Of a DNA stretch of 64,000 nucleotides, positions 26 to 23,283 are shown in pieces. Origin of the DNA: Burkholderiales bacterium (GTDB lineage Bacteria > Pseudomonadota > Gammaproteobacteria > Burkholderiales > Burkholderiaceae_C); NCBI GenBank assembly GCA_016195825.1, contig JACPYV010000161.1, forward strand, positions 1 through 64,000. Direction: 5' to 3'. The position numbers and the translations under genes are program-made. Every line of letters starts with the position of its first letter. Position 1 is the first letter of the stretch. A model generated the notes under the pieces. That model searched no databases, was not told the origin of the DNA, and saw nothing but the letters and a program-made list of their open reading frames with translations.

Positions 26-450
26 GCGGCGGCACCAAGCACAAGGCCGTCGCAACCTGGCTGGCGCTGGCCGTCGGCGTGTTCGGCGCGCATCGCTTCT
101 ATCTGCATGGGCCGAAGGACCGCTGGGCGTGGCTGTTCCCGCTGCCGACGCTGCTGGGCCTGGTCGGCCTGCAACGCATGGACCAACTGGGCCAGGACGA
201 CCGCCTGGCCTGGGCGCTGATCCCGCTGCTGGGCGTCAGCCTCGTCGCCGCACTGATCGGCGGCATCGTCTACGGCTTGATGCCCGACGAGCGATGGAAC
301 GCGCGCTTCAACGCCGGCCAGCCGAGCTCGACCGGCGGCTGGGGTGCCGTCATCGGTGTCGTGCTGTGTGTGTTCGTCGGCGGCACGACGCTGATGGCCA
401 CCATCGCCTTCAGCGCCCAGCGCTATTTCGAGGCCCAGGCCGGTCAGTAG
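22..450 (+). CDS. Small TM2-domain-like membrane protein
   Basis: 142 aa ORF; N-terminal LALAVGVFGAHRFYLHG resembles the TM2 motif; several hydrophobic segments. Confidence 0.75.
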   Translation: MSGGTKHKAVATWLALAVGVFGAHRFYLHGPKDRWAWLFPLPTLLGLVGLQRMDQLGQDDRLAWALIPLLGVSLVAALIGGIVYGLMPDERWNARFNAGQPSSTGGWGAVIGVVLCVFVGGTTLMATIAFSAQRYFEAQAGQ

Positions 451-1454
451 AGAGCGAAACTGACCCAGTAGCAGATGCCGGCCATGGTGGCCGCGGCTGG
501 GATCGTGAAGATCCACGCCCAGACAATGCTGCCCGCCACGCCCCAGCGCACGGCCGAGGCGCGCTGCACCGAGCCGACGCCCACGATGGCGCCCGTGATG
601 GTGTGTGTGGTCGACACCGGGATGCCCATGGCCGTGGCCAGGAACAGCGTGATGGCACCGCCCGTCTCGGCACAGAAGCCGCCCACCGGCTTGAGCTTGG
701 TGATGCGCTGACCCATGGTCTGCACGATGCGCCAGCCGCCGAACATGGTGCCCATGCCGATGGCGATGTAGCAAGCGACGATGACCCAGGTGGGCGGCGC
801 CTTCTCGCCCACACCCACCATGCCGGCAGCGATCAGCAGCATCCAGATCAGGCCGATGGTCTTCTGCGCGTCGTTGCCGCCATGGCCCAGACTGTAGAGC
901 CCGGCGGACACGAGCTGCAGTCGCCGGAACCAGCGATCGATGCGTATCGGCGACTTGTGCCGGCAGATCCAGGCCACGATGACCATCATCAATGAGCCCA
1001 GCAGGTAGCCCAGCAGCGGCGACACGATGATGAAGGCCACGGTCTTCCAGATGCCACCCGCAACCAGCGCCGACGGGCCGGCCTTGGCGACCACGGCACC
1101 GGCGATGCCGCCGATCAGCGCGTGTGACGAGCTCGACGGGATGCCCCACCACCAAGTGATGCCGTTCCAGGCGATGGCGCCGATCAGCGCGCCGAACACG
1201 ACGTGGTGGTCCACGATGCCCGGCTCGACGATGCCCTTGCCCACCGTGGCCGCCACCTTGAGTTGGAAGATGGCGATGGCGACGACGTTGAAGAAGGCGG
1301 CGAACAGCACCGCCTGCTGGGGCTTGAGCACGCCGGTGGAGACGACGGTGGCGATGGAGTTGGCGGCGTCGTGGAAGCCATTCATGAAGTCGAACAGCAG
1401 GGCCAGCACGACGAGCAGGGCCACCACCCAGAAGGCGATCTCAGCGGATGCCAT
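444..1454 (-). CDS. pit: Inorganic phosphate transporter, Pit family
   Basis: 336 aa; FDFMNGFHDAANSIATVVSTGVL and GGNDAQKTIGLI motifs of PiT transporters. Confidence 0.93.
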   Translation of the reverse strand: MASAEIAFWVVALLVVLALLFDFMNGFHDAANSIATVVSTGVLKPQQAVLFAAFFNVVAIAIFQLKVAATVGKGIVEPGIVDHHVVFGALIGAIAWNGITWWWGIPSSSSHALIGGIAGAVVAKAGPSALVAGGIWKTVAFIIVSPLLGYLLGSLMMVIVAWICRHKSPIRIDRWFRRLQLVSAGLYSLGHGGNDAQKTIGLIWMLLIAAGMVGVGEKAPPTWVIVACYIAIGMGTMFGGWRIVQTMGQRITKLKPVGGFCAETGGAITLFLATAMGIPVSTTHTITGAIVGVGSVQRASAVRWGVAGSIVWAWIFTIPAAATMAGICYWVSFALY

Positions 1455-1466
1455 GGGAGCGCCTGA

Positions 1467-2114
1467 TCAGGAGTTCTCGAGGACGATGCCCTCGATCAGA
1501 TTGGCCACGTCCTCGCAACGGTCGGAGATGGATTCCAGCTGCTCGTAGATCGCCTTGAGCTTGATGAGCTCGCGCACGTCCGGCTCCTCGCGGAACAGGC
1601 GCGACATTGCAGAGCGCATGACGCGGTCGGCATCGGACTCGAGCTTGTCGATCTCCTCGCATGTCTTGATCGCGGCCTCGGTCGTGGCCGGCTTGCTGAG
1701 GTGGGGCAGCAGCGTGACGGCGTGCTGCACGCGCTCGCAGCAACGTACGGACAGCGTCGCCAGCTGCAGCACCTGCTCTGGCACGGCGCGCACGTCGTAC
1801 AGCGACAGCGTCTCGGACGAGTCCTGCAGCAGGTCGACGATGTCGTCCATCGCGTTGATCAGGCCGTGGATCTGCTCGCGGTCGATGGGCGTGATGAAGG
1901 TGCGGTGCAGCAGCCGGTTGACCTCGGCCGTCACGCGGTCGGCCGCATGCTCGGCCGTGTCCACATCGTCCGCGTACTGCTGGCGCAGCGCCGGATCGGC
2001 GTAGTTCTCGATCATCTTCAGGAAAGCGCGGGCGCCTTCCGCGATGTGGTTGCCGTGCTCGTTGAACAGCTCAAAAAAATTGCCCTCACGGGGCAGCAGT
2101 TTGCCGAACAGCAT
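1467..2114 (-). CDS. DUF47 family (PhoU-like) protein, pit partner
   Basis: 215 aa helical protein (LLPREGNFFELFNEHGNHIAEGARAF) directly upstream of pit. Confidence 0.9.
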   Translation of the reverse strand: MLFGKLLPREGNFFELFNEHGNHIAEGARAFLKMIENYADPALRQQYADDVDTAEHAADRVTAEVNRLLHRTFITPIDREQIHGLINAMDDIVDLLQDSSETLSLYDVRAVPEQVLQLATLSVRCCERVQHAVTLLPHLSKPATTEAAIKTCEEIDKLESDADRVMRSAMSRLFREEPDVRELIKLKAIYEQLESISDRCEDVANLIEGIVLENS

Positions 2115-2153: not shown

Positions 2154-2187
2154 TACCTAGCCCGCCCACATGACCGCATCATGACCG
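2154..2187 (-). promoter_or_regulatory. Candidate PhoB box plus -10 upstream of DUF47-pit
   Basis: Minus strand CGGTCAT-GATG-CGGTCAT (2170-2187), 10-nt spacer, TAGGTA (2154-2159); each heptamer matches CTGTCAT at 6 of 7 positions. Confidence 0.65.
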
Positions 2188-13747: not shown

Positions 13748-14344
13748 TCAGCCGCGACGGCGGCGGGCCAGCAGCAGCGCACCGCCAGCCAGCAGCAGCG
13801 CGACGCTGGTGGGTTCCGGCACGGCGGCGATGTTGTCCAGGCCGACCAGGTTGGCGGTGCCGGTCAGGTCGAAGGACTTGGCGGTGCCGCTGAAGCTCAG
13901 CACGGCCTTGTTCCAGGCCGAGTAATCGGCCGAATTGGCGTTCAGGCTGATCGTGCCCAGCAGCGTGCCGGTGCCATTCAGGCCGGAGTACGCCTTGATC
14001 GCGCCGGTCACGGCTTCAGGCGACGAGTAGAAGAAGCTCAGGCCACCGCTGACGCCGGCGGCGACGTTCATGTAGGCGGTCGTGTTGGTGACGCCGTCCA
14101 GCTGCACGAAGGCCGTGCCCAGCATCGACGGCGCGCTGGCGTAATAGGCGCCGTTGGCCAGGTTGCCCAGGCCGTCGTTGTTAGACACGCCCAGCACGTT
14201 GGTGAAGGTCACGCCGTCGGCGGCGTAGGTGTCGGCGACATCGGTGCCGTAGATCCAGCTCTTTTCGAAGTCGACGGACAAGGGGGCGGCGGCGAAAGCC
14301 GGCGATGCGAGGCCGAGGGCCAGGGCGAGGGTGGCGAGCTTCAT
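13748..14344 (-). CDS. PEP-CTERM sorting-domain protein
   Basis: Signal peptide MKLATLALALGLASPAFAA; C-terminus VPEPTSVALLLAGGALLLARRRRG. Confidence 0.9.
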   Translation of the reverse strand: MKLATLALALGLASPAFAAAPLSVDFEKSWIYGTDVADTYAADGVTFTNVLGVSNNDGLGNLANGAYYASAPSMLGTAFVQLDGVTNTTAYMNVAAGVSGGLSFFYSSPEAVTGAIKAYSGLNGTGTLLGTISLNANSADYSAWNKAVLSFSGTAKSFDLTGTANLVGLDNIAAVPEPTSVALLLAGGALLLARRRRG

Positions 14345-14407
14345 CGAGTGAACTCCAGAGCTTGAGGTGTTGGAGCGGCGGGGCCGCGGCGTCTTGGTCG
14401 GAGGCGG

Positions 14408-14441
14408 AGTGTGGTGAGCAATGACGACAGCCGCGTGACGC
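14408..14441 (-). promoter_or_regulatory. Candidate Pho-box promoter facing the PEP-CTERM gene
   Basis: Minus strand GCGTCAC-GCGG-CTGTCGT (14424-14441), 10-nt spacer, CACACT (14408-14413). Confidence 0.45.
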
Positions 14442-14470
14442 CTCCAAGGCAGATCCGGGCCGGACGGCGC

Positions 14471-14504
14471 GCGTCACGCCGCTGTCACCGGCGCCTGCGA
14501 TGGT
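14471..14504 (+). promoter_or_regulatory. Candidate Pho-box promoter facing the PCu(A)C-like gene
   Basis: GCGTCAC-GCCG-CTGTCAC (14471-14488), 10-nt spacer, GATGGT (14499-14504). Confidence 0.45.
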
Positions 14505-14532
14505 CTATGCCCCCCCGTCTGTACTGCGCCGC

Positions 14533-14982
14533 ATGACCACCCCTTCCCTGCTCCGCCGCCAGCTGTTGATCGCCCTCGGTACGGCAGGCCTGGCCCGCCC
14601 GGCACGCGCCTGCGAGTTCTTCAGCAGCCACCTGCGCATCTGGCACCCCTGGACACGGGCCACGCGCGTCAACGCCGAGACAGCCGTGCTTTGCATGCGC
14701 TTCGACGAGGTCCAGAAAACGGACCGCCTGATCGGCATCGAGACCCCCGTAGCCAGGGGGGCCAGGCTGGCGGGGCCGGCTGCGCCGACGGCCACGCAAG
14801 ACCTGTCACTGCTGATCCCGGCCGGCGAGACGCTGACGCTCGCCGAGGACGGCCTCTACATCGAGCTGCTGGACCTGCAACAGCCACTGCAGATCGGCCG
14901 CAGCTTCCCGCTGCGTCTGATCTTCGAGTCCGCCGAACCGGTCAACGCGATGCTCAACGTCGACTACGCCGGCCTGCGTTGA
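14533..14982 (+). CDS. Exported PCu(A)C-like protein lacking canonical copper ligands
   Basis: MTTPSLLRRQLLIALGTAGLARPARAC signal; HPWTRAT...DRLIGIETPVA...LTLAEDGLYIELLDLQQPLQIGRSFPLRLIFE follows the PCuAC pattern. Confidence 0.75.
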   Translation: MTTPSLLRRQLLIALGTAGLARPARACEFFSSHLRIWHPWTRATRVNAETAVLCMRFDEVQKTDRLIGIETPVARGARLAGPAAPTATQDLSLLIPAGETLTLAEDGLYIELLDLQQPLQIGRSFPLRLIFESAEPVNAMLNVDYAGLR

Positions 14983-15016
14983 AGCCCGGCGGTTCGGCCC
15001 ATTCCGCGTCGCATTG

Positions 15017-15050
15017 CCGTCACGCCAGGGTCACGCCCGCTTCCTAGCAT
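15017..15050 (+). promoter_or_regulatory. Candidate Pho-box promoter of the DUF3604 gene
   Basis: CCGTCAC-GCCA-GGGTCAC (15017-15034), 10-nt spacer, TAGCAT (15045-15050), ATG at 15095. Confidence 0.5.
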
Positions 15051-15094
15051 CCGCCCCGTTTCAAGCCCTTCCAACAAGCCCTGGAGCCGCACCC

Positions 15095-17380
15095 ATGAAC
15101 CATCTCTTCAGCAAGAGCCAGATTGCCTTGGCCGCCGTCGCGGCACTCGGCAGTGTCGCGATCATTTCGCCCAACCTCGCCACCGCCGCCGGCAAGACGC
15201 CCGGCAAATACGTGGCCGGAGACTTCCACAACCACACCACCTGCTCGGACGGCTCCATCTCCATGCAGAAGCTGGTCAAGAAGGTGACTGACAAGACCGA
15301 AACCCCCTGGGGTCTGGACTGGTTCGTGCAAGCCGGCCACGGCGGCAACGGCAACCGCAATTGCACGCTGGTCGAGGACGCCACGCTGTCCACGCCCGCC
15401 TACCCCTTCGTCTCCGGCCAGGGTCCGACAACGACCTGGGCCAACAGCATCGGCGCAGCCAACATCAAGGGCAATGGTGGCGGCGTCGGCGGCAACGGCA
15501 ACATGTGGCGCTGGCAGTCCATCCAGGAGTACCAGTACCCCGTCATCGAATACCTGTCGGCACAAAAGAACGTGCCGCTGTTCATCGGCATGGAGTCCGT
15601 CGTGGCCGGCCATGAGCACACCTCCATGTCCGTCATCACCGGCCAGATGCCTGCCGCCGTGGACAACGCCACGCTGCCGACGACGCCTGGCTACACCGCG
15701 CTGGGCAATGCCAACGCGCTGGCCCAGTGGTCTTATTGCTTCGACCGCGGTGACACCGACACCAGCCGCGGCAACACGACCGGCACCACCACCGGCAACA
15801 ACTGGGATTGCAGCAACCCCGACAGCGCCGACTCCACGTCGAGCACGCTGGGCTGGAGCGCTGCCGGCAAGAAGCTGGTGCAGCCCACCGGCGCCGGCAC
15901 GGGCACCAAGGGTCACCTGAAGACCGTCGAGGCGCTGAAGTGGATGGCCAAGTTCCACGGGCAGGGCAGCTATTACGTGCCCGCCCACCTGGAGCGCGCC
16001 GGCCCGTTCAACGTCGACGGCAACAACGGCTTCAACATCGAGCACCTGCGCAACTTCAACAACGCGGCCCCCACCGTCGCCTTCGGCTTCGAGTCCCAGC
16101 CCGGCCACGGCGCCTCGGCCAACCGCGGTGAATACCAGGTCAAGCGCAACAACTTCGGCGCTGTGGCAGGCCTGGTCGACTCGGTCGGCGGCACAACCTT
16201 CGGCGGCACCGGCGTCTACGCGGCCCAGGTCGGCGGCGTGTGGGACGCGCTGCTCGGCGAAGGTCGCAACTGGTGGTTCTTCGCCAGCTCCGACTGGCAC
16301 AACCGCGGCTCCTTCGGCCCGGATGACCGCCGCTCGTCACAGGACTTCTACCCCGGCGAATACCAGCGCACCTATGCCATGGTCCGCAACGGCGCCGACA
16401 AGCTGCGCCCGCAGACCATCGTCGACGGCCTGCGCACCGGCAACGCCTTCTCGTCCTCGGGTCAGCTGATTGACCGCCTGGCCTTCGTCGCCTGCACGTC
16501 CTACCCCGGCGTCGGCGCCCGCAGCAATGCGGCCGTGGAAGCACTGGCCGTCGCCGCCGCCACCGCTGGCACCGACATCGACAAGACCGGCTGCGCGACC
16601 ATGGGCGAAAAGCTCGTTGCTCGCCCGGGCGCCGAGATCGTCGTCGCCGTGGTGCTGCGCGACCCCGAGGGTGCGAATTTCTCGCCCTACAGCTTCCCCA
16701 ATCCGTCGCTGGCCCAGGTTGGCATCAACCAGCCGCTGAACAAGCCGGTGCTGGACCACGTCGACCTGATCCGCGGCCTGGTGACGGGCTACAAGACGCC
16801 GGGTGCGGCCGACTACTCGGGCGAATGGCCGCGCAACACCAACTGGCTGAAGACCGACGGCACGACCACCGGCCTGGCCAGCGTTCCGAACGGCGCGAAG
16901 AACACGTCAGCCGCCATCGTGAAGACCTTCAGTGGCAACGGCAGCACGCCATGGACGCAGGTGCAGTCCGGTGTGGACAACACGGTCTTCCTGAAGATGA
17001 GCTTCCGCATCCCGGCGGTGCAGGCTTCGCAGTACATCCGTCTGCGCGGCACCAACCTGCCGGCCGCCGTGCCCTACGAGACCGACGCCAACGGCAACCC
17101 GCTGGCCGACATCTTCACCAACGCCAACGACACGACGATGCTGCGCATCCCGTGCACGACGGTGGGCACCAACGTGCCGGCTGCCGGCGTCACCTGGGAC
17201 CAGGCCAAGGGCACGATCGATGGCTGCCCTAGCCACCTGGCCACCGCTTCTGGCGCCAGCCCGATCGCCGGCCAGAAGGCCGTGTCGTTTGACGTGGCCG
17301 CCTGGTCCGACCTCTGGTTCTACAGCAACCCGATCTACGTCGAAGTGGCCAACTCGACCGCCGTCGCCGGCGTGAAGTAA
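15095..17380 (+). CDS. Exported DUF3604 protein (PHP-fold metal-dependent hydrolase-like)
   Basis: MNHLFSKSQIALAAVAALGSVAIISPNLATAAG signal; GDFHNHTTCSDGSISMQKL PHP-like motif; FASSDWHNRGSFGPDDRRSSQDFYPGEYQRTYAMVRNG. Confidence 0.9.
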   Translation: MNHLFSKSQIALAAVAALGSVAIISPNLATAAGKTPGKYVAGDFHNHTTCSDGSISMQKLVKKVTDKTETPWGLDWFVQAGHGGNGNRNCTLVEDATLSTPAYPFVSGQGPTTTWANSIGAANIKGNGGGVGGNGNMWRWQSIQEYQYPVIEYLSAQKNVPLFIGMESVVAGHEHTSMSVITGQMPAAVDNATLPTTPGYTALGNANALAQWSYCFDRGDTDTSRGNTTGTTTGNNWDCSNPDSADSTSSTLGWSAAGKKLVQPTGAGTGTKGHLKTVEALKWMAKFHGQGSYYVPAHLERAGPFNVDGNNGFNIEHLRNFNNAAPTVAFGFESQPGHGASANRGEYQVKRNNFGAVAGLVDSVGGTTFGGTGVYAAQVGGVWDALLGEGRNWWFFASSDWHNRGSFGPDDRRSSQDFYPGEYQRTYAMVRNGADKLRPQTIVDGLRTGNAFSSSGQLIDRLAFVACTSYPGVGARSNAAVEALAVAAATAGTDIDKTGCATMGEKLVARPGAEIVVAVVLRDPEGANFSPYSFPNPSLAQVGINQPLNKPVLDHVDLIRGLVTGYKTPGAADYSGEWPRNTNWLKTDGTTTGLASVPNGAKNTSAAIVKTFSGNGSTPWTQVQSGVDNTVFLKMSFRIPAVQASQYIRLRGTNLPAAVPYETDANGNPLADIFTNANDTTMLRIPCTTVGTNVPAAGVTWDQAKGTIDGCPSHLATASGASPIAGQKAVSFDVAAWSDLWFYSNPIYVEVANSTAVAGVK

Positions 17381-17406
17381 ACCGGGCCGCCTCAAGGCAA
17401 CCTCTC

Positions 17407-17440
17407 GAAGGGCGTCGCGATCGCGACGCCCTTCTTCATT
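17407..17440 (+). terminator. Terminator-like 28-nt perfect palindrome after the DUF3604 gene
   Basis: GAAGGGCGTCGCGA|TCGCGACGCCCTTC followed by TTCATT. Confidence 0.75.
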
Positions 17441-17457
17441 TGCAACAGGAGACCGTC

Positions 17458-18060
17458 ATGAGGACTTCCGTCGCGGCCGCCCTGCTGGCCGTCGCTGCGG
17501 CCTGCGCCCAGGCCACTACCGTTTGGCAGGAAGGGGCGGACGGCACCAACGACTTGTCGAACGACCGGCTGGCGCCGACGACGGTCACCATGGGCCTGGG
17601 GCACAACTTGGTGCTCGGCACGACGGGCAACGCCGGCTCGGGCATCGACCGCGACTATTTCAGGTTCGACGTGCCCGCCGGTGCCGTGCTTGAAGCCATC
17701 GTGCTGCATCCCGACACCTTCGTTTCCGGCGACGCGTCGTTTATCGGCATCCAGGCCGGGCCGCAAGTGACCGTGACGCCCACCGGCGGCGGCGCGGGTG
17801 TCACGGCCCTGTATGGCTTCCTCCACTACCGAAACGACCAGATCGGCCAAAACATTCTCCCGGAGCTGGCGTTCGGGACATCCCCGGTGCCCGCCCCTGC
17901 CGGCACCTACGCAGTCTGGGTACAGGAACTCGGCGGCGAGGTGCGCTACGGGTTCGACTTCGTCGTCGCTTCCAGCGTGCCCGAGCCGGCCGCGGCCCTG
18001 CGCCTCGCTCTGGGCCTTGCAGGCCTAGCCTGTCGTCGTTTTGTCTTGCTGCGTCGATAG
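17458..18060 (+). CDS. PEP-CTERM-type exported protein
   Basis: MRTSVAAALLAVAAACAQA signal; C-terminus SSVPEPAAALRLALGLAGLACRRFVLLRR. Confidence 0.8.
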   Translation: MRTSVAAALLAVAAACAQATTVWQEGADGTNDLSNDRLAPTTVTMGLGHNLVLGTTGNAGSGIDRDYFRFDVPAGAVLEAIVLHPDTFVSGDASFIGIQAGPQVTVTPTGGGAGVTALYGFLHYRNDQIGQNILPELAFGTSPVPAPAGTYAVWVQELGGEVRYGFDFVVASSVPEPAAALRLALGLAGLACRRFVLLRR

Positions 18061-18091
18061 CATCCGCCGCTCGTCGCGCCCTCCAAGACCC

Positions 18092-18946
18092 ATGTCCGCC
18101 CAACTGCCCCTGAGCTCCGCCACCCAGGCACCGCCCCGCCTGCCCCTGCCCACCTGGACGCGCGAACCGCTGCTGCACTTCCTTCTGCTCGGCGGACTGC
18201 TGTTCGGGGCCGACCAGCTACTGAACCGCCGCGCCGGCGATGCCAGCGTGATCGTCGTCAGTGCGGAGATCGAGGAAGAGGCGCGTCAGGTCTTCAAGGC
18301 CTCGCGCAACCGCGAGCCCAACGCCGAGGAGATGGCCGCGCTGCGCAAGGTCTGGCTGGACAACGAGGTGCTGTACCGCGAGGGGCTGGCCCTGCAACTG
18401 GACAAGGGCGACACTGCCATCCGCGAGCGCGTTATCTTCAAGGCGCTCAGCGTCGTCGACGGCGGCACCAAGCTGCCGCCGGTCAACGAAAAGCTGCTGC
18501 GCGAGTGGTTCGACCAGCACATCGCGAAGTACGAAGAGCCAGGCCGCTTCGACTTCCAGGAGGCCGTGCTGAGCGGCGAAAGCGATGAAGCTGCCGTGCG
18601 AGCGTTCGTCGACGCGCTGAACGCCGGCACGCCGGGCGACGCCAAGGCCGGCCTGCGCGTCTTCAAGGGCCGCCCGCACGCCAACTTGGTACAGAGCTAT
18701 GGCGCTGACTTCGCCAAGGCGCTGGAGGCCGCGACACCCGGCCAGTGGCTGGCGCTTTCCTCCAGTGAAGGCTGGCGCGCTGTGCGCCTGGAGGCCACAA
18801 GCGCGCCCAAGCCGGCCAATTTCGACACCTTGCGCGGCGTCGTGCTGCAGGACTGGACCGACGCGACCTTGTCTGAGCAGCGCAGTGCGGCCGTCGCGGC
18901 ATTGGCCAGGAAATACACCGTCCAGGTCGAGGCACCCGCGAAATGA
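18092..18946 (+). CDS. Membrane-anchored peptidylprolyl isomerase (PpiC/SurA-like)
   Basis: Hydrophobic anchor LLHFLLLGGLLFGADQLL; periplasmic SurA/PpiC-like helical region; start trimmed to MSAQLPLSS. Confidence 0.82.
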   Translation: MSAQLPLSSATQAPPRLPLPTWTREPLLHFLLLGGLLFGADQLLNRRAGDASVIVVSAEIEEEARQVFKASRNREPNAEEMAALRKVWLDNEVLYREGLALQLDKGDTAIRERVIFKALSVVDGGTKLPPVNEKLLREWFDQHIAKYEEPGRFDFQEAVLSGESDEAAVRAFVDALNAGTPGDAKAGLRVFKGRPHANLVQSYGADFAKALEAATPGQWLALSSSEGWRAVRLEATSAPKPANFDTLRGVVLQDWTDATLSEQRSAAVAALARKYTVQVEAPAK

Positions 18947-19902
18947 AGCGCCTCGTGATCTTGCTGCGCGCCGCGCTGCTGCTCGCGCTGACTGTGGCTG
19001 CCCTGCCCTCGCAGGCCCACGAGATGAGCATGGCCGAGATGCAGCTGCGCGAGACCCGGCGCGGCGAATTCATCTGGCAGTGGATGGCCACCGAGAAGCG
19101 CCCCGCCGCCCAGGACCTGACACCACTGTGGCCCGAGGCCTGCCAGGCCGAGGCCAACGTGCTGCGCTGCGGCGAGCACGGCCTGTCCGGCACGCTGGCG
19201 GTCAAGGGCGTGGGCGAGCGCTACTCGGCCGCCGTCATCAAGGTCTTCTGGCTGGACGGCGAGAGCCGCGTCTACACCCTCACTAAGGGCCAGCCCACGG
19301 TGCAGCTGTACGGCGCCGCCAACGACCCGCGCGGCATGGGCGAGATCGCCAGCGCCTACACGCTGCTCGGCGTGGAGCACATCCTGGGCGGCATCGACCA
19401 CCTGCTCTTCGTCATCGGCCTGCTGTTCCTGGTCGGCTTTCGGCGCCGGCTGGTTTGGACGATCACGGCCTTCACCGCCGCGCACAGCCTCACGCTGGCC
19501 AGCAGCGCCTTGGGCTGGTTGACGCTGCGCTCGGCACCGGTGGAGGCCAGCATCGCGCTGTCCATCGTGCTGGTGGCCGTCGAGGCGCTGCACCGGCGGG
19601 ACACCTTGGCGCGACGCTGGCCGGCGGTCGTCGCCTTCCTGTTTGGCCTGGTCCACGGGTTGGGCTTTGCCGGCGCACTCAAGGAGATCGGCCTGCCCGA
19701 GAATCACCTGCTGGTCGCGCTGTTGACCTTCAACGTCGGCGTGGAGATCGGCCAGCTGATGACGGTGGGCGCCTGCTGGTGCCTGTGGCGCGTGACCGCA
19801 CGCTGGCCGGCGGCGCAGCGGCTGCGCACGCTGCTGCTCTACGTCATCGGCAGCGTGGCGGCGTACTGGTCTTGGCTGCGCATCGCGGCGGTGCTGGCAT
19901 GA
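18943..19902 (+). CDS. HupE/UreJ family membrane protein
   Basis: EHILGGIDHLLFVIGLLFLVGFRRRLVWTITAFTAAHSLTLA...LVHGLGFAGALKEIGLP; 4-nt overlap with the isomerase. Confidence 0.9.
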   Translation: MKRLVILLRAALLLALTVAALPSQAHEMSMAEMQLRETRRGEFIWQWMATEKRPAAQDLTPLWPEACQAEANVLRCGEHGLSGTLAVKGVGERYSAAVIKVFWLDGESRVYTLTKGQPTVQLYGAANDPRGMGEIASAYTLLGVEHILGGIDHLLFVIGLLFLVGFRRRLVWTITAFTAAHSLTLASSALGWLTLRSAPVEASIALSIVLVAVEALHRRDTLARRWPAVVAFLFGLVHGLGFAGALKEIGLPENHLLVALLTFNVGVEIGQLMTVGACWCLWRVTARWPAAQRLRTLLLYVIGSVAAYWSWLRIAAVLA

Positions 19903-19984
19903 GTCGCGCCGCGCCGCGCCGCCCCAAGCAAGCGGTGGCCCCGTCGGGGGACCGGCCGATGTACTCGTCGGACGAAGGGTTGGG

Positions 19985-20611
19985 ATGACCGACGAAGTCA
20001 TTGGCCTGTTCCCGGTGCCGCTGCTGCGCGCCCCGGGCGCTCTGCCGCAGCCGCTGGTGGGCGCCCTCGTCGACCACTTCAGCACCCAGGCGCTGCAGGC
20101 CAACAACAGCTCCGAGGCGCTGTCGCACACGCGCATGCTGCAGCCGTCGGACAGCCCGCTCCTGGTGCAGGCCGCGGCTCTTATCACGCCCAAGATCGCC
20201 GAGCTCGGCCGCCTTCTCTTCGGGGAGAACCTAGGCTGGGCCATCAAGGAGATGTGGGTCAATGTGCTGGACACCGGCGGCCGCCAGGCCATGCACAACC
20301 ACGCCAACAGCTTCGCGTCCGGCGTGGTCTACCTGACCGAGACCGACGACTCGGCCCGCACCGTGTTCATGAAGTCGCCCGGGGGGCATGACTTCGCGTT
20401 GAAAAACGACCACGCCGGCGTGGTTACCGGGCCCTACAACGCCGAGAAATGGGTCAGCCCCGCGCCCAGCCCGGGCGACCTGGTGTTGTTCCCGAGCTAT
20501 CTGATGCACGCCGTGCCGCCCAACGCCGGCGGGCGGCGCATCAGTCTGGCTTTCAACGCCATCCCGACGCGGCTGGAGAGCTGGGGCTACACACTCAGCT
20601 TCAACGCTTGA
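19985..20611 (+). CDS. TIGR02466-like putative 2OG-Fe(II) oxygenase
   Basis: EMWVNVLDTGGRQAMHNHANSFASGVVYLT...PGDLVLFPSYLMHAVPPN...RISLAFN double-stranded beta-helix features. Confidence 0.85.
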   Translation: MTDEVIGLFPVPLLRAPGALPQPLVGALVDHFSTQALQANNSSEALSHTRMLQPSDSPLLVQAAALITPKIAELGRLLFGENLGWAIKEMWVNVLDTGGRQAMHNHANSFASGVVYLTETDDSARTVFMKSPGGHDFALKNDHAGVVTGPYNAEKWVSPAPSPGDLVLFPSYLMHAVPPNAGGRRISLAFNAIPTRLESWGYTLSFNA

Positions 20612-20675
20612 AATGATGCCCCACGTCCAGTCTCGCCGCGCTGAACGCGGGCGAGCCCAGTCGGCCTTGCAGGCC

Positions 20676-20735
20676 GCGCAGCCGACGAAACGGCTGCTCT
20701 TCGGCAGGCACGCCAAGTCCACAGGACTTGCCGTG
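20676..20735. repeat. Tandem hairpin-forming inverted repeats in a 242-nt intergenic region
   Basis: GCAGCCG-acgaaa-CGGCTGC (20678-20697) and CACGcCAAGTCC-aca-GGACTTGcCGTG (about 20709-20735). Confidence 0.5.
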
Positions 20736-20853
20736 TCCGGCCTCAGCCCCCGACGGGACGGCGATGCATGCGGCATGGAGCCGCAAGCCCATCGCCTGCG
20801 GGCTGGCTTGGGGCGGCCCGGCGCCAGTCCGCGCTTCTAGGCACGACGGGTTC

Positions 20854-23283
20854 ATGCGCCAACTTGCACTCTTGCTGATGGCCGCCTCCGGCTTTGCCGG
20901 GCTGGGCTACCAGATCGTTTGGACACAGCAGATGGGGCTGGTGCTGGGCCACGAGTCGGCCGCCGTGCTGGCCGTCGTTGCGGCCTTCTTCGGCGGGTTG
21001 TCGCTCGGCGCCTTGCTGCTGGGCCGGCGCATCGAGGCAAGCGCCAGGCCGCTGCGCTGGTATGCCGGCTGCGAGGCGTTGATCGGCCTGTGGGGCGCCG
21101 TGCTGATGGCGACCATGCCCGCGGTCAGCAACGCGGCGCTGGCGCTGATCGGACCGGACGTCACGCCCGCCTGGCACTGGAGCGTGGCCTTCGCCGCCAG
21201 CTTCCTGCTGCTGCTGCCGGCCACCGCGGCGATGGGCGCGACGCTGCCGGCCATGGCCCGCCTGGGCACGGCCAGGCTCGCGCCGCTGTACGCCGCCAAC
21301 ACGTTGGGCGCCGTCGCAGGCGTTCTGGCAACGGCCTTCTGGCTGATCCCTGAGCTGGGGCTCACGCGCAGCACCGGCCTGTGCGTGGCGCTCAACCTCG
21401 GGTGCGCGCTGCTGGCCGGCATCGCCCTGAAATCCACGCCCGGCGCTGCGCTCGGCCCGGTGACGTCGAGCCGCCCGCTGTGGATGCTGGCCGCGACCGG
21501 GCTGCTGGGCATCGCGTACGAGGTGCTGGCCGTGCGCGTGCTCAGCCAGGTGGCGGAGGACACGGTCTACACCTTCGCCCTGCTGCTGGCCGTCTACCTG
21601 GCCGGCAGCGCGCTGGGCGCCTCGGCGTTTGCGCGCTGGGCCAAGCTGCGCAGCACGCCGCGGCTGCTGCAGGCGCTGGCCGTCAGCATCCTGCTGGGCA
21701 TGGCCGCGATGTGGGGCGCCGAGTCGATCAAGCAGGCCCTGCGGCCCGAGACATTGGCCGGCGCCCTGGCCACCGAGGCCGCGCTGGCGTTGGCCGTGTT
21801 CGCGTTGCCCACCTTGCTGATGGGCGCCCTGTTCTGCCAGCTCAGCTCGGACGCCGCCGAGGCCGGCATTCCGTTCAGCCGCGCGCTGGGTATCAACACG
21901 CTGGGCGCTACGCTGGCCGCGCCGCTGTTCGGCGTGGCGCTGGCGCCGATGCTGGGCCCGAAGTTCGCGCTGCTGATCGTCGCTGCGGGCTACCTGGCAC
22001 TTGCACCCGCGTGGCGCAACCCGGCCTGGTGGCTGCCTGCTGCAGCGATGGCAGCCGTGGCCGTGCTCGCGCCGCCGCTGGCCTTCATCGACCTGCCCGA
22101 GGGCGGCCAATTGCTCAGCTACCGCGATGGCGCGATGGCCGCTGTCAGCGTCGTGGAGGACGACACCGGCATCGCGCGCCTACGCATCAACAACCGCCAG
22201 CAGGAAGGCAGCAGCGCGACGCTGCTGGTCGACGGCCGGCAGGCCTTGCTGCCCTTGCTGCTGCACCCGGCGCCGCACCGGGCGCTCTTCCTGGGCCTTG
22301 GCTCTGGCATCACGGCCGGTGTCGCCGCGCGCCTGCCGGGCGTACAGGTCGACGCCGTGGAACTGCTGCCCGAGGTCATCGCGGCCTCGGCCCTGTTCCG
22401 CACGCCCCTCGGCGACGGCCCCGCTCCGCGCCTGCACGCCGCCGACGCGCGCCGCTACGTCCGCACGGCCACGCAACGCTACGACGTCGTCGTGTCCGAC
22501 AACTTCCACCCGGCCCGCAGTGGCTCGGGCGCGCTGTACACCGTCGAACACTTCCAGGCCGTGCGCGAGCGTCTGGCACCGCAGGGCCTGTTTTGCCAAT
22601 GGTTGCCGCTGCACCAGCTCGACATCGACACGCTGCGCAGCATCACGGCCGCCTTCCTTCAGGCGTTTCCCGATGGCGCAGCCCTCCTTGCCAGCAACAG
22701 CCTGGACACACCCACCGTGGGCCTGGTGGGCCGTGCCGGGGTCACCCGCTTCCAGCCCGGCCCCAGGCCCGACCTGGCCGTGCGATTCGGCCTGGCCGAT
22801 GACTTTGCCGTGCTGGGCAGCTTCGTGGCTGACAGCGCCGCGCTGCATCGCCTGGCCGCTGGCGTACCGTTGAACACCGACGACCGGCCCTGGGTGGCCT
22901 ACCGCGCGCCACGCATCACCTACGCGCCCGACTCCGCGCCGCGGGACCGCCTGCTGGCGCTGTTGGGTCAGGTCGACGTCGACGCGACGACCCTGCTCGT
23001 CGCGCCGGACCCGGCGCTGGCCGCGCGGCTGACCGCTTACGCCCAGGCCCGGCAGGGCTATCTCGACCTGGGCCGCCGCACCGTGCCCAGCGCTGACCCG
23101 GCTGTCATGCTCACCCGCGTGGGCCCGACACTGCTGGCCGTGCTGCGCCGCAGCCCCGACTTCCAGCCCGCCGCCGAGCCGCTGCGCCGGCTCGCGCAAG
23201 CACTGGCACCGAATGACCCGGCCGCGGCGCAGCGCTTGCTGGCATCCTTAGCCGGTATCCGCCCCGACCTCGCCGCCCCCTGA
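20854..23283 (+). CDS. MFS-like/spermidine-synthase fusion protein
   Basis: N-terminal polytopic half (GFAGLGYQIVWTQQMGLVLGHE); C-terminal LFLGLGSGITAGVAARLPGVQVDAVELLPEVI...YDVVVSDNFHPARSGSGALYTVEHFQAVRERLAPQGLFCQWLPLHQ. Confidence 0.9.
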   Translation: MRQLALLLMAASGFAGLGYQIVWTQQMGLVLGHESAAVLAVVAAFFGGLSLGALLLGRRIEASARPLRWYAGCEALIGLWGAVLMATMPAVSNAALALIGPDVTPAWHWSVAFAASFLLLLPATAAMGATLPAMARLGTARLAPLYAANTLGAVAGVLATAFWLIPELGLTRSTGLCVALNLGCALLAGIALKSTPGAALGPVTSSRPLWMLAATGLLGIAYEVLAVRVLSQVAEDTVYTFALLLAVYLAGSALGASAFARWAKLRSTPRLLQALAVSILLGMAAMWGAESIKQALRPETLAGALATEAALALAVFALPTLLMGALFCQLSSDAAEAGIPFSRALGINTLGATLAAPLFGVALAPMLGPKFALLIVAAGYLALAPAWRNPAWWLPAAAMAAVAVLAPPLAFIDLPEGGQLLSYRDGAMAAVSVVEDDTGIARLRINNRQQEGSSATLLVDGRQALLPLLLHPAPHRALFLGLGSGITAGVAARLPGVQVDAVELLPEVIAASALFRTPLGDGPAPRLHAADARRYVRTATQRYDVVVSDNFHPARSGSGALYTVEHFQAVRERLAPQGLFCQWLPLHQLDIDTLRSITAAFLQAFPDGAALLASNSLDTPTVGLVGRAGVTRFQPGPRPDLAVRFGLADDFAVLGSFVADSAALHRLAAGVPLNTDDRPWVAYRAPRITYAPDSAPRDRLLALLGQVDVDATTLLVAPDPALAARLTAYAQARQGYLDLGRRTVPSADPAVMLTRVGPTLLAVLRRSPDFQPAAEPLRRLAQALAPNDPAAAQRLLASLAGIRPDLAAP

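Follow-up and report, generated by a model that had tools for sequence, protein, structure and literature searches.

An exported PHP-type metallohydrolase cluster with PhoB-type promoters in Burkholderiales: very probably a new phosphate-scavenging system

Genes for the scavenging of phosphate under Pho control, such as those for PhoX, PhoD, GlpQ-type GDPD, UxpA and PlcP, combine a PhoB-type promoter with a presumed release of inorganic phosphate (Pi). From the PHP superfamily, Sb-PDE of Sphingobium sp. TCM1 is described as an exported, zinc-containing phosphodiesterase that serves phosphate release (PMC5460133). Among the permeases, Ang-HupE/UreJ-2 proteins bind copper or nickel through an N-terminal histidine (PMC12537917). 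Here we describe a gene cluster that brings together features of these systems. It lies in a stretch of 64,000 nt (contig JACPYV010000161.1 of the Burkholderiales bacterium assembly GCA_016195825.1, positions 1-64,000), which we call the window, and it encodes an exported PHP-type metallohydrolase together with a PpiC-type isomerase, a HupE-type permease and further partners (Table 1). Sequence comparisons make it very probable that PhoB controls the cluster and that we are dealing with a new system for phosphate scavenging.

When comparing the locus to the known systems, we find a partial likeness in each case. It shares with the Pho scavenging genes the PhoB-type promoter and the presumed release of Pi, whereas its enzyme has another fold and, as genetic partners, a metal permease and a foldase. 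Sb-PDE, compared here by description, also belongs to the PHP superfamily, carries a signal peptide and breaks down organophosphate together with alkaline phosphatases; however, it has 441 aa and a detectable Pfam PHP domain, whereas the enzyme of the window has 761 aa and no significant Pfam match. The CehA/McbA family (NF038032; carbaryl hydrolases) shows significant domain similarity around D400-x-H402, but the enzyme reaches only half of the curated cut-off and stands in a different context, consisting of Pho box, PpiC and HupE. The Ang-1 'anglerase' permeases have the same build as our HupE, with a signal peptide, a mature N-terminal histidine, an extracytoplasmic domain and a C-terminal HupE/UreJ-2 permease; their published neighbourhood survey, in contrast, names DUF4198, indigoidine-synthase-like and PfkB genes and not PHP or PpiC (PMC12537917). 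Our literature search found no paper on the function of DUF3604 (the family to which the enzyme had been assigned in a preliminary description of this DNA) or on the module, and nothing that directly links the Pho regulon to HupE or to PHP domains.

The promoter of the PHP gene ranks with that of pstS in the whole genome. A pattern search of the 6.0-Mb genome finds GTCAY-N6-GTCAY-N10-TANNNT without mismatch at just two places, 15019 before the PHP gene and 9780 of contig 119 before pstS. When one mismatch is allowed, 17 sites are found compared to 5 for the reversed pattern. Some of the 17 lie inside coding regions; the 17 also include the sites of the module and of pstS as well as sites before PhoU_div/Pit, a GDPD gene, a calcineurin-like phosphoesterase gene, the gene of a phytase-like PEP-CTERM protein and a fasciclin protein gene that is divergent from pstS. 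The genome-wide scan proposed in the preliminary description thus ties the PHP site with pstS, and classical Pho-type genes are over-represented behind the single-mismatch sites. Across 13 genomes of the genus, including this one, the more stringent TANNAT form yields 19 perfect sites, which belong to pstS (12) and to the PHP gene (7); the reversed form has no match in 21 genomes. The host genome (207 contigs; closest named relatives Roseateles/Pelomonas) encodes Pst and also PhoB (337 bits, curated cut-off 296), the latter about 4 kb from pstS. Divergent one-mismatch boxes were also seen on contig 94 (14888-14991), where they separate a subtilase gene from the gene of the type II secretion protein GspG. 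This locus is probably a Pho-controlled secretion system, by analogy to Pseudomonas putida, where GspG, like the metallophosphoesterase PlcP, depends on PhoBR (PMC5082522).

Within the window, the repeat GTCAY-N6-GTCAY occurs three times compared to 0.29 expected, a number that none of 100 shuffled sequences reaches. Two of these strict sites are in the module and the third precedes the PhoU_div/Pit phosphate-transport operon. If N10 and the -10 hexamer are added to the pattern and up to one mismatch is allowed, three sites are observed compared to 0.03 expected. According to the preliminary description, three transcription heads are preceded by two 7-mers with an 11-nt period, then exactly 10 nt and then a hexamer; we find this arrangement at all three. 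To score the sites we used a matrix that was built from 12 pstS promoters only, and a background of 20,000 windows without the module promoters. The PHP site scores 25.6 and lies above all background windows (maximum 21.1), and the PCu(A)C-like site has P=0.0017, whereas the PEP-CTERM site on its own has P=0.022. Thus, two of the three boxes stand alone and the PEP-CTERM box is weak. A fourth box, before PpiC, had been overlooked; it overlaps the 3' end of the second PEP-CTERM gene. The PHP promoter has a third in-phase repeat, GTCGC at 15008, so that 15008-15050 reads GTCGCAT-TGCC-GTCACGC-CAGG-GTCAC-N10-TAGCAT in 11-nt phase.

The boxes recur in related loci. We compared 80 orthologous loci, totalling 1.13 Mb, and found 70 strict repeats with the 6-nt spacer, compared to 0-15 for each of the other spacers between 0 and 15 nt; 59 of the 70 are oriented towards a module gene, be it PHP, PCu(A)C, 2OG or PEP-CTERM. 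Scored with the pstS-trained matrix, 61 of 75 regions upstream of the PHP gene reach the 99th percentile of the background, where 0.8 would be expected, and 51 lie above the 99.9th. The same threshold is reached upstream of PCu(A)C in 26 of 47 regions (with 12 strict boxes before PCu(A)C orthologues), of PpiC in 20 of 76 (0.8 expected), of the relatives of the PEP-CTERM gene at 13748 in 14 of 54 (0.5 expected) and of the 2OG oxygenase in 5 of 69. No such box is found upstream of HupE (0/74), the SpeE-like gene (0/64) or an OTC neighbour (0/12). We thus conclude that the boxes belong to transcription heads. The 2OG oxygenase has a strict box of its own in three loci where it is arranged divergently, and boxes are also present in loci of Variovorax, Leptothrix, Pseudorhodoferax, Hydrocarboniphaga and Competibacteraceae. 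A Comamonadaceae plasmid carries a copy of the module (CP099604.1 25197-43200) with 49% identity and another gene order, in which a 9-of-10 box with TA at the -10 precedes the first gene. This plasmid module adjoins nikR and a TonB-dependent receptor gene. Seven other Pseudomonadota genomes encode more distant relatives of the enzyme, 540-660 aa in length, and none of these has PpiC or HupE nearby; one of the seven has a strict Pho box just before its start, GTCACCATCCCGTCAC-N10-TATGGT. The genome rank, the build shared with pstS and the conservation among orthologues bear out, at the level of sequence, the Pho control that had been proposed for the module.

Table 1. Genes and promoter elements of the module and of the phosphate-transport operon in the window
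Feature	Coordinates	Strand	Remarks
PEP-CTERM exported protein	13748-14344	-	divergent gene
PCu(A)C-like protein, RR (Tat-like) signal	14533-14982	+	PF04314, 51.5 bits
PHP-type exported metallohydrolase, 761 aa	15095-17380	+	Sec-type signal by inspection; not PF12228
Second PEP-CTERM protein	17461-18060	+	
Membrane-anchored PpiC-type peptidyl-prolyl isomerase (Rotamase_2)	18092-18946	+	PF13145, 39.2 bits (cut-off 27)
HupE_UreJ_2 permease, N-terminal exported domain	18943-19902	+	PF13795, 160 bits (cut-off 24.5)
2OG-Fe(II) oxygenase	19985-20611	+	PF13759; beyond the coordinates of the preliminary description
SpeE-like polytopic membrane protein, C-terminal spermidine-synthase-like domain	20848-23283	+	PF01564, 24.5 bits
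PhoU_div (DUF47) gene	1467-2114	-	
Pit gene	444-1454	-	Pit assignment by inspection
PhoB-box promoter of PHP gene	15017-15050	+	CCGTCAC-GCCA-GGGTCAC-N10-TAGCAT
PhoB-box promoter of PCu(A)C-like gene	14471-14504	+	GCGTCAC-GCCG-CTGTCAC-N10-GATGGT
Weak PhoB-box-like promoter of divergent PEP-CTERM gene	14408-14441	-	GCGTCAC-GCGG-CTGTCGT-N10-CACACT
Degenerate PhoB-box-like promoter before PpiC	18030-18063	+	CTGTCGT-N4-TTGTCTT-N10-TAGCAT; P=0.0024
Strict PhoB box before PhoU_div/Pit operon	2154-2187	-	internal positive control within the window

The enzyme is most likely a PHP-superfamily metallohydrolase, as judged from its ordered invariant motifs and a CehA/McbA match below the cut-off. In about 80 orthologues, the candidate ligands H45, H47, D52, H82, E167, H173, H175, H298, D400 and H402 are invariant. 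They lie in the motifs DFHNH, D52, AGH82, E167, H173/H175, AH298 and SD400WH402, and the enzyme thus has the full PHP ligand set in order (HxH, D/H, H, E, H, H, DxH). The NCBIfam CehA/McbA model NF038032 matches residues 381-491, around D400-x-H402, with E=2.7e-10, and this match is seen in all 38 members scanned. Hence, the preliminary description was right in seeing an exported protein with PHP metal motifs, the signal being recognised by inspection, but its DUF3604 label for 15095-17380 has to be dropped. The DUF3604 model PF12228 has no match at E<=1 in 38 members and none in the genome, and a profile comparison (hhalign) of the enzyme family with 22 DUF3604 proteins results in a probability of 9% (E=0.0035, 107 columns); the two results together rule out a DUF3604 identity. 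A search against Pfam gives no significant match for the enzyme, the best being PF02811 with E=0.17. We believe that the enzyme probably acts as a phosphoesterase.

All six genes that had been placed at 13748-19902 are present. This core stood, whereas its 3' limit did not: with the 2OG oxygenase and the SpeE-like gene, the module reaches 23283 and its boundaries are 13748-23283. The second PEP-CTERM gene, found in 2 of 53 loci, is not a conserved member. The tight linkage of the enzyme to PpiC and HupE is evident, each being beside the PHP gene in 71 of the 72 loci with enough sequence, and the oxygenase and the SpeE-like gene are linked in 51 and 49 of 53 loci, respectively. These last two genes occur in three arrangements (downstream, divergent upstream and tandem upstream), which suggests that their linkage is kept by selection and not by mere inheritance of one block. 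Relatives of the PEP-CTERM gene at 13748 are present in 41 of the 53 loci with room for them; for the PCu(A)C-like gene the count is 34 of 53. The distribution of the module is patchy, as the enzyme was found in 18 out of 201 genomes from the family.

Among the partners, HupE has His-Glu at the mature N-terminus (with cleavage predicted by eye) and the motif HX5DH in 74 of 74 proteins; its N-terminal domain has no sequence match to any solved PDB chain. The PCu(A)C-like protein clearly exceeds the PF04314 cut-off of 29.4 bits, and its closest solved chain is PmoF1 (6p17). We prefer its start at 14533 over 14500, as the start of the longer open reading frame falls inside the promoter. A twin-arginine signal is followed by a conserved RACEF; the HxM motif was not seen by eye, and only H38 and M55 are conserved among the candidate copper ligands. 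It is plausible that PpiC is a foldase for the enzyme and that HupE supplies its metal.

A similar triad exists around true DUF3604 proteins. On a plasmid of Rhodobacter sp. CZR27, PpiC and HupE genes come after a DUF3604 gene (817 bits), and in Pararhizobium DUF3604 likewise occurs with PpiC and HupE. Such triads recur across Pseudomonadota and do not seem to have been described in the literature that we searched; the mature N-terminus of HupE is His or Asp there. In a sample of 30 DUF3604 loci, for which short flanks were examined, 19 carry PpiC and/or HupE. The order is the same as in the window (exported PHP-like enzyme, Rotamase_2 PpiC, HupE_UreJ_2), and PpiC and HupE are homologous to those of the window (E 4e-24 and 2e-54), whereas the enzymes are not detectably homologous over their length (BLASTP not significant, in addition to the hhalign result above). 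This parallel may be the source of the earlier DUF3604 label.

Several observations speak against a Pho-controlled phosphoesterase system. The NF038032 score of 40.2 bits is below the curated cut-off of 80, and as the CehA/McbA family includes carbamate hydrolases, a PHP-type fold is no proof of phosphate-ester chemistry. AlphaFold models, built for the whole enzyme as well as for the catalytic part alone, are mediocre (predicted local distance difference test 68 and 77), and Foldseek against the PDB gives no significant match. The best PHP-plausible fold match is 7rty (PsfC) with E=2.0 and a template modelling score by target of 0.53; owing to the missing significance, we do not use the fold search as evidence. 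Furthermore, many of the orthologous loci are from close relatives, so that the counts among orthologues are not independent, and several of these loci have no strict box. Lastly, a strict Pho box is found in none of the 30 sampled DUF3604 loci, which shows that Pho control is no inherent property of the triad.

Regulators of the OmpR family generally recognise repeats whose period is about 10-11 nt, and the genome encodes many response regulators. The repeats could thus be the site of another OmpR/PhoB-family regulator, or have arisen by chance, in a module unrelated to phosphate. However, their consensus, spacing and -10 are the same as at pstS in the genome and in the genus, and a matrix from pstS alone finds the sites, with control counts of zero or near zero. 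A chance origin is ruled out by the genome rank, the spacer test, the reversed controls, the pstS matrix and the counts in the window, and we regard the explanation as a whole as extremely improbable. A further alternative accepts the phosphate signal and sees in the cluster a remodelling of the envelope or of the exopolysaccharide surface under phosphate limitation by the PEP-CTERM proteins, the exported enzyme and the oxygenase, for instance the removal of phosphate from surface polymers in place of ester scavenging. This would fit the frequent PEP-CTERM relatives and the one-mismatch Pho-type sites before the phytase-like PEP-CTERM gene and the type II secretion gene. However, in the DUF3604-type loci of other lineages PpiC and HupE likewise accompany an exported enzyme, and the second PEP-CTERM gene lacks conservation, so that we consider surface remodelling to be quite improbable.

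The cluster might also be controlled by PhoB but serve mainly the acquisition of nickel or copper and the maturation of metalloproteins, the enzyme being a CehA/McbA-type esterase or amidase or releasing metal from chelates. The N-terminal histidine of HupE, the PCu(A)C-like protein and the iron oxygenase are all related to metals, CehA/McbA is the only curated model that matches the enzyme well, and the Comamonadaceae plasmid module has nikR and the TonB receptor as neighbours. The presence of nikR hints at nickel, in one case; an E. coli-type NikR operator, with up to 3 mismatches, does not occur in the module. Control of metal uptake by PhoB has a precedent in Synechocystis, where PhoB is reported to control iron acquisition directly (PMC11126600). 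Nevertheless, it is the enzyme and not the permease that has the strongest box, the rank of this box alongside pstS speaks for a function in phosphorus supply, and about a third of the loci lack the PCu(A)C-like gene. A primarily metal-related function is therefore unlikely in our view, although less so than surface remodelling.

We consider it likely that the cluster is a PhoB-activated system with an extracytoplasmic PHP phosphoesterase that is folded by PpiC and receives its metal via HupE. Under shortage of Pi, phosphorylated PhoB would bind the tandem 11-nt boxes and turn on the divergent and the tandem units. The exported metalloenzyme would then cleave organic phosphoesters outside the cytoplasm, and the freed phosphate would be taken up by the Pst (and Pit) transporters, which would be under the same control. 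As family and linkage suggest, the membrane-anchored PpiC would aid the folding of the exported enzyme, and HupE, with its mature N-terminal histidine, would capture and move the transition metal that the system needs.

With homologous PpiC and HupE, enzymes without detectable homology and sampled DUF3604 loci that lack the box, the triad looks like a general module for exported enzymes, whose Burkholderiales form is tied to PhoB. We tentatively propose, as a possibility somewhat short of probable, that PHP-PpiC-HupE is a general exported-metalloenzyme triad of Proteobacteria, in which an enzyme has its own foldase and its own metal importer and can itself be exchanged, being DUF3604 in many lineages and a family unrelated in sequence in Burkholderiales. 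There, PhoB might have taken over the triad, resulting in an uncharacterised class of phosphate-scavenging enzyme, with a metal supply switched on by phosphate starvation, which adds to, or by-passes, PhoX, PhoD and PhoA.

Which enzymes release phosphate from organic phosphorus in soils and freshwater has yet to be settled, and surveys mostly count PhoA, PhoX, PhoD and a few others. An enzyme family that has no Pfam model, with a promoter equal to that of pstS, is thus a concrete candidate that is absent from such surveys. Together with the DUF3604 parallel, the linked permease would also hint at what two large unexplained families do and at how their metal is supplied.

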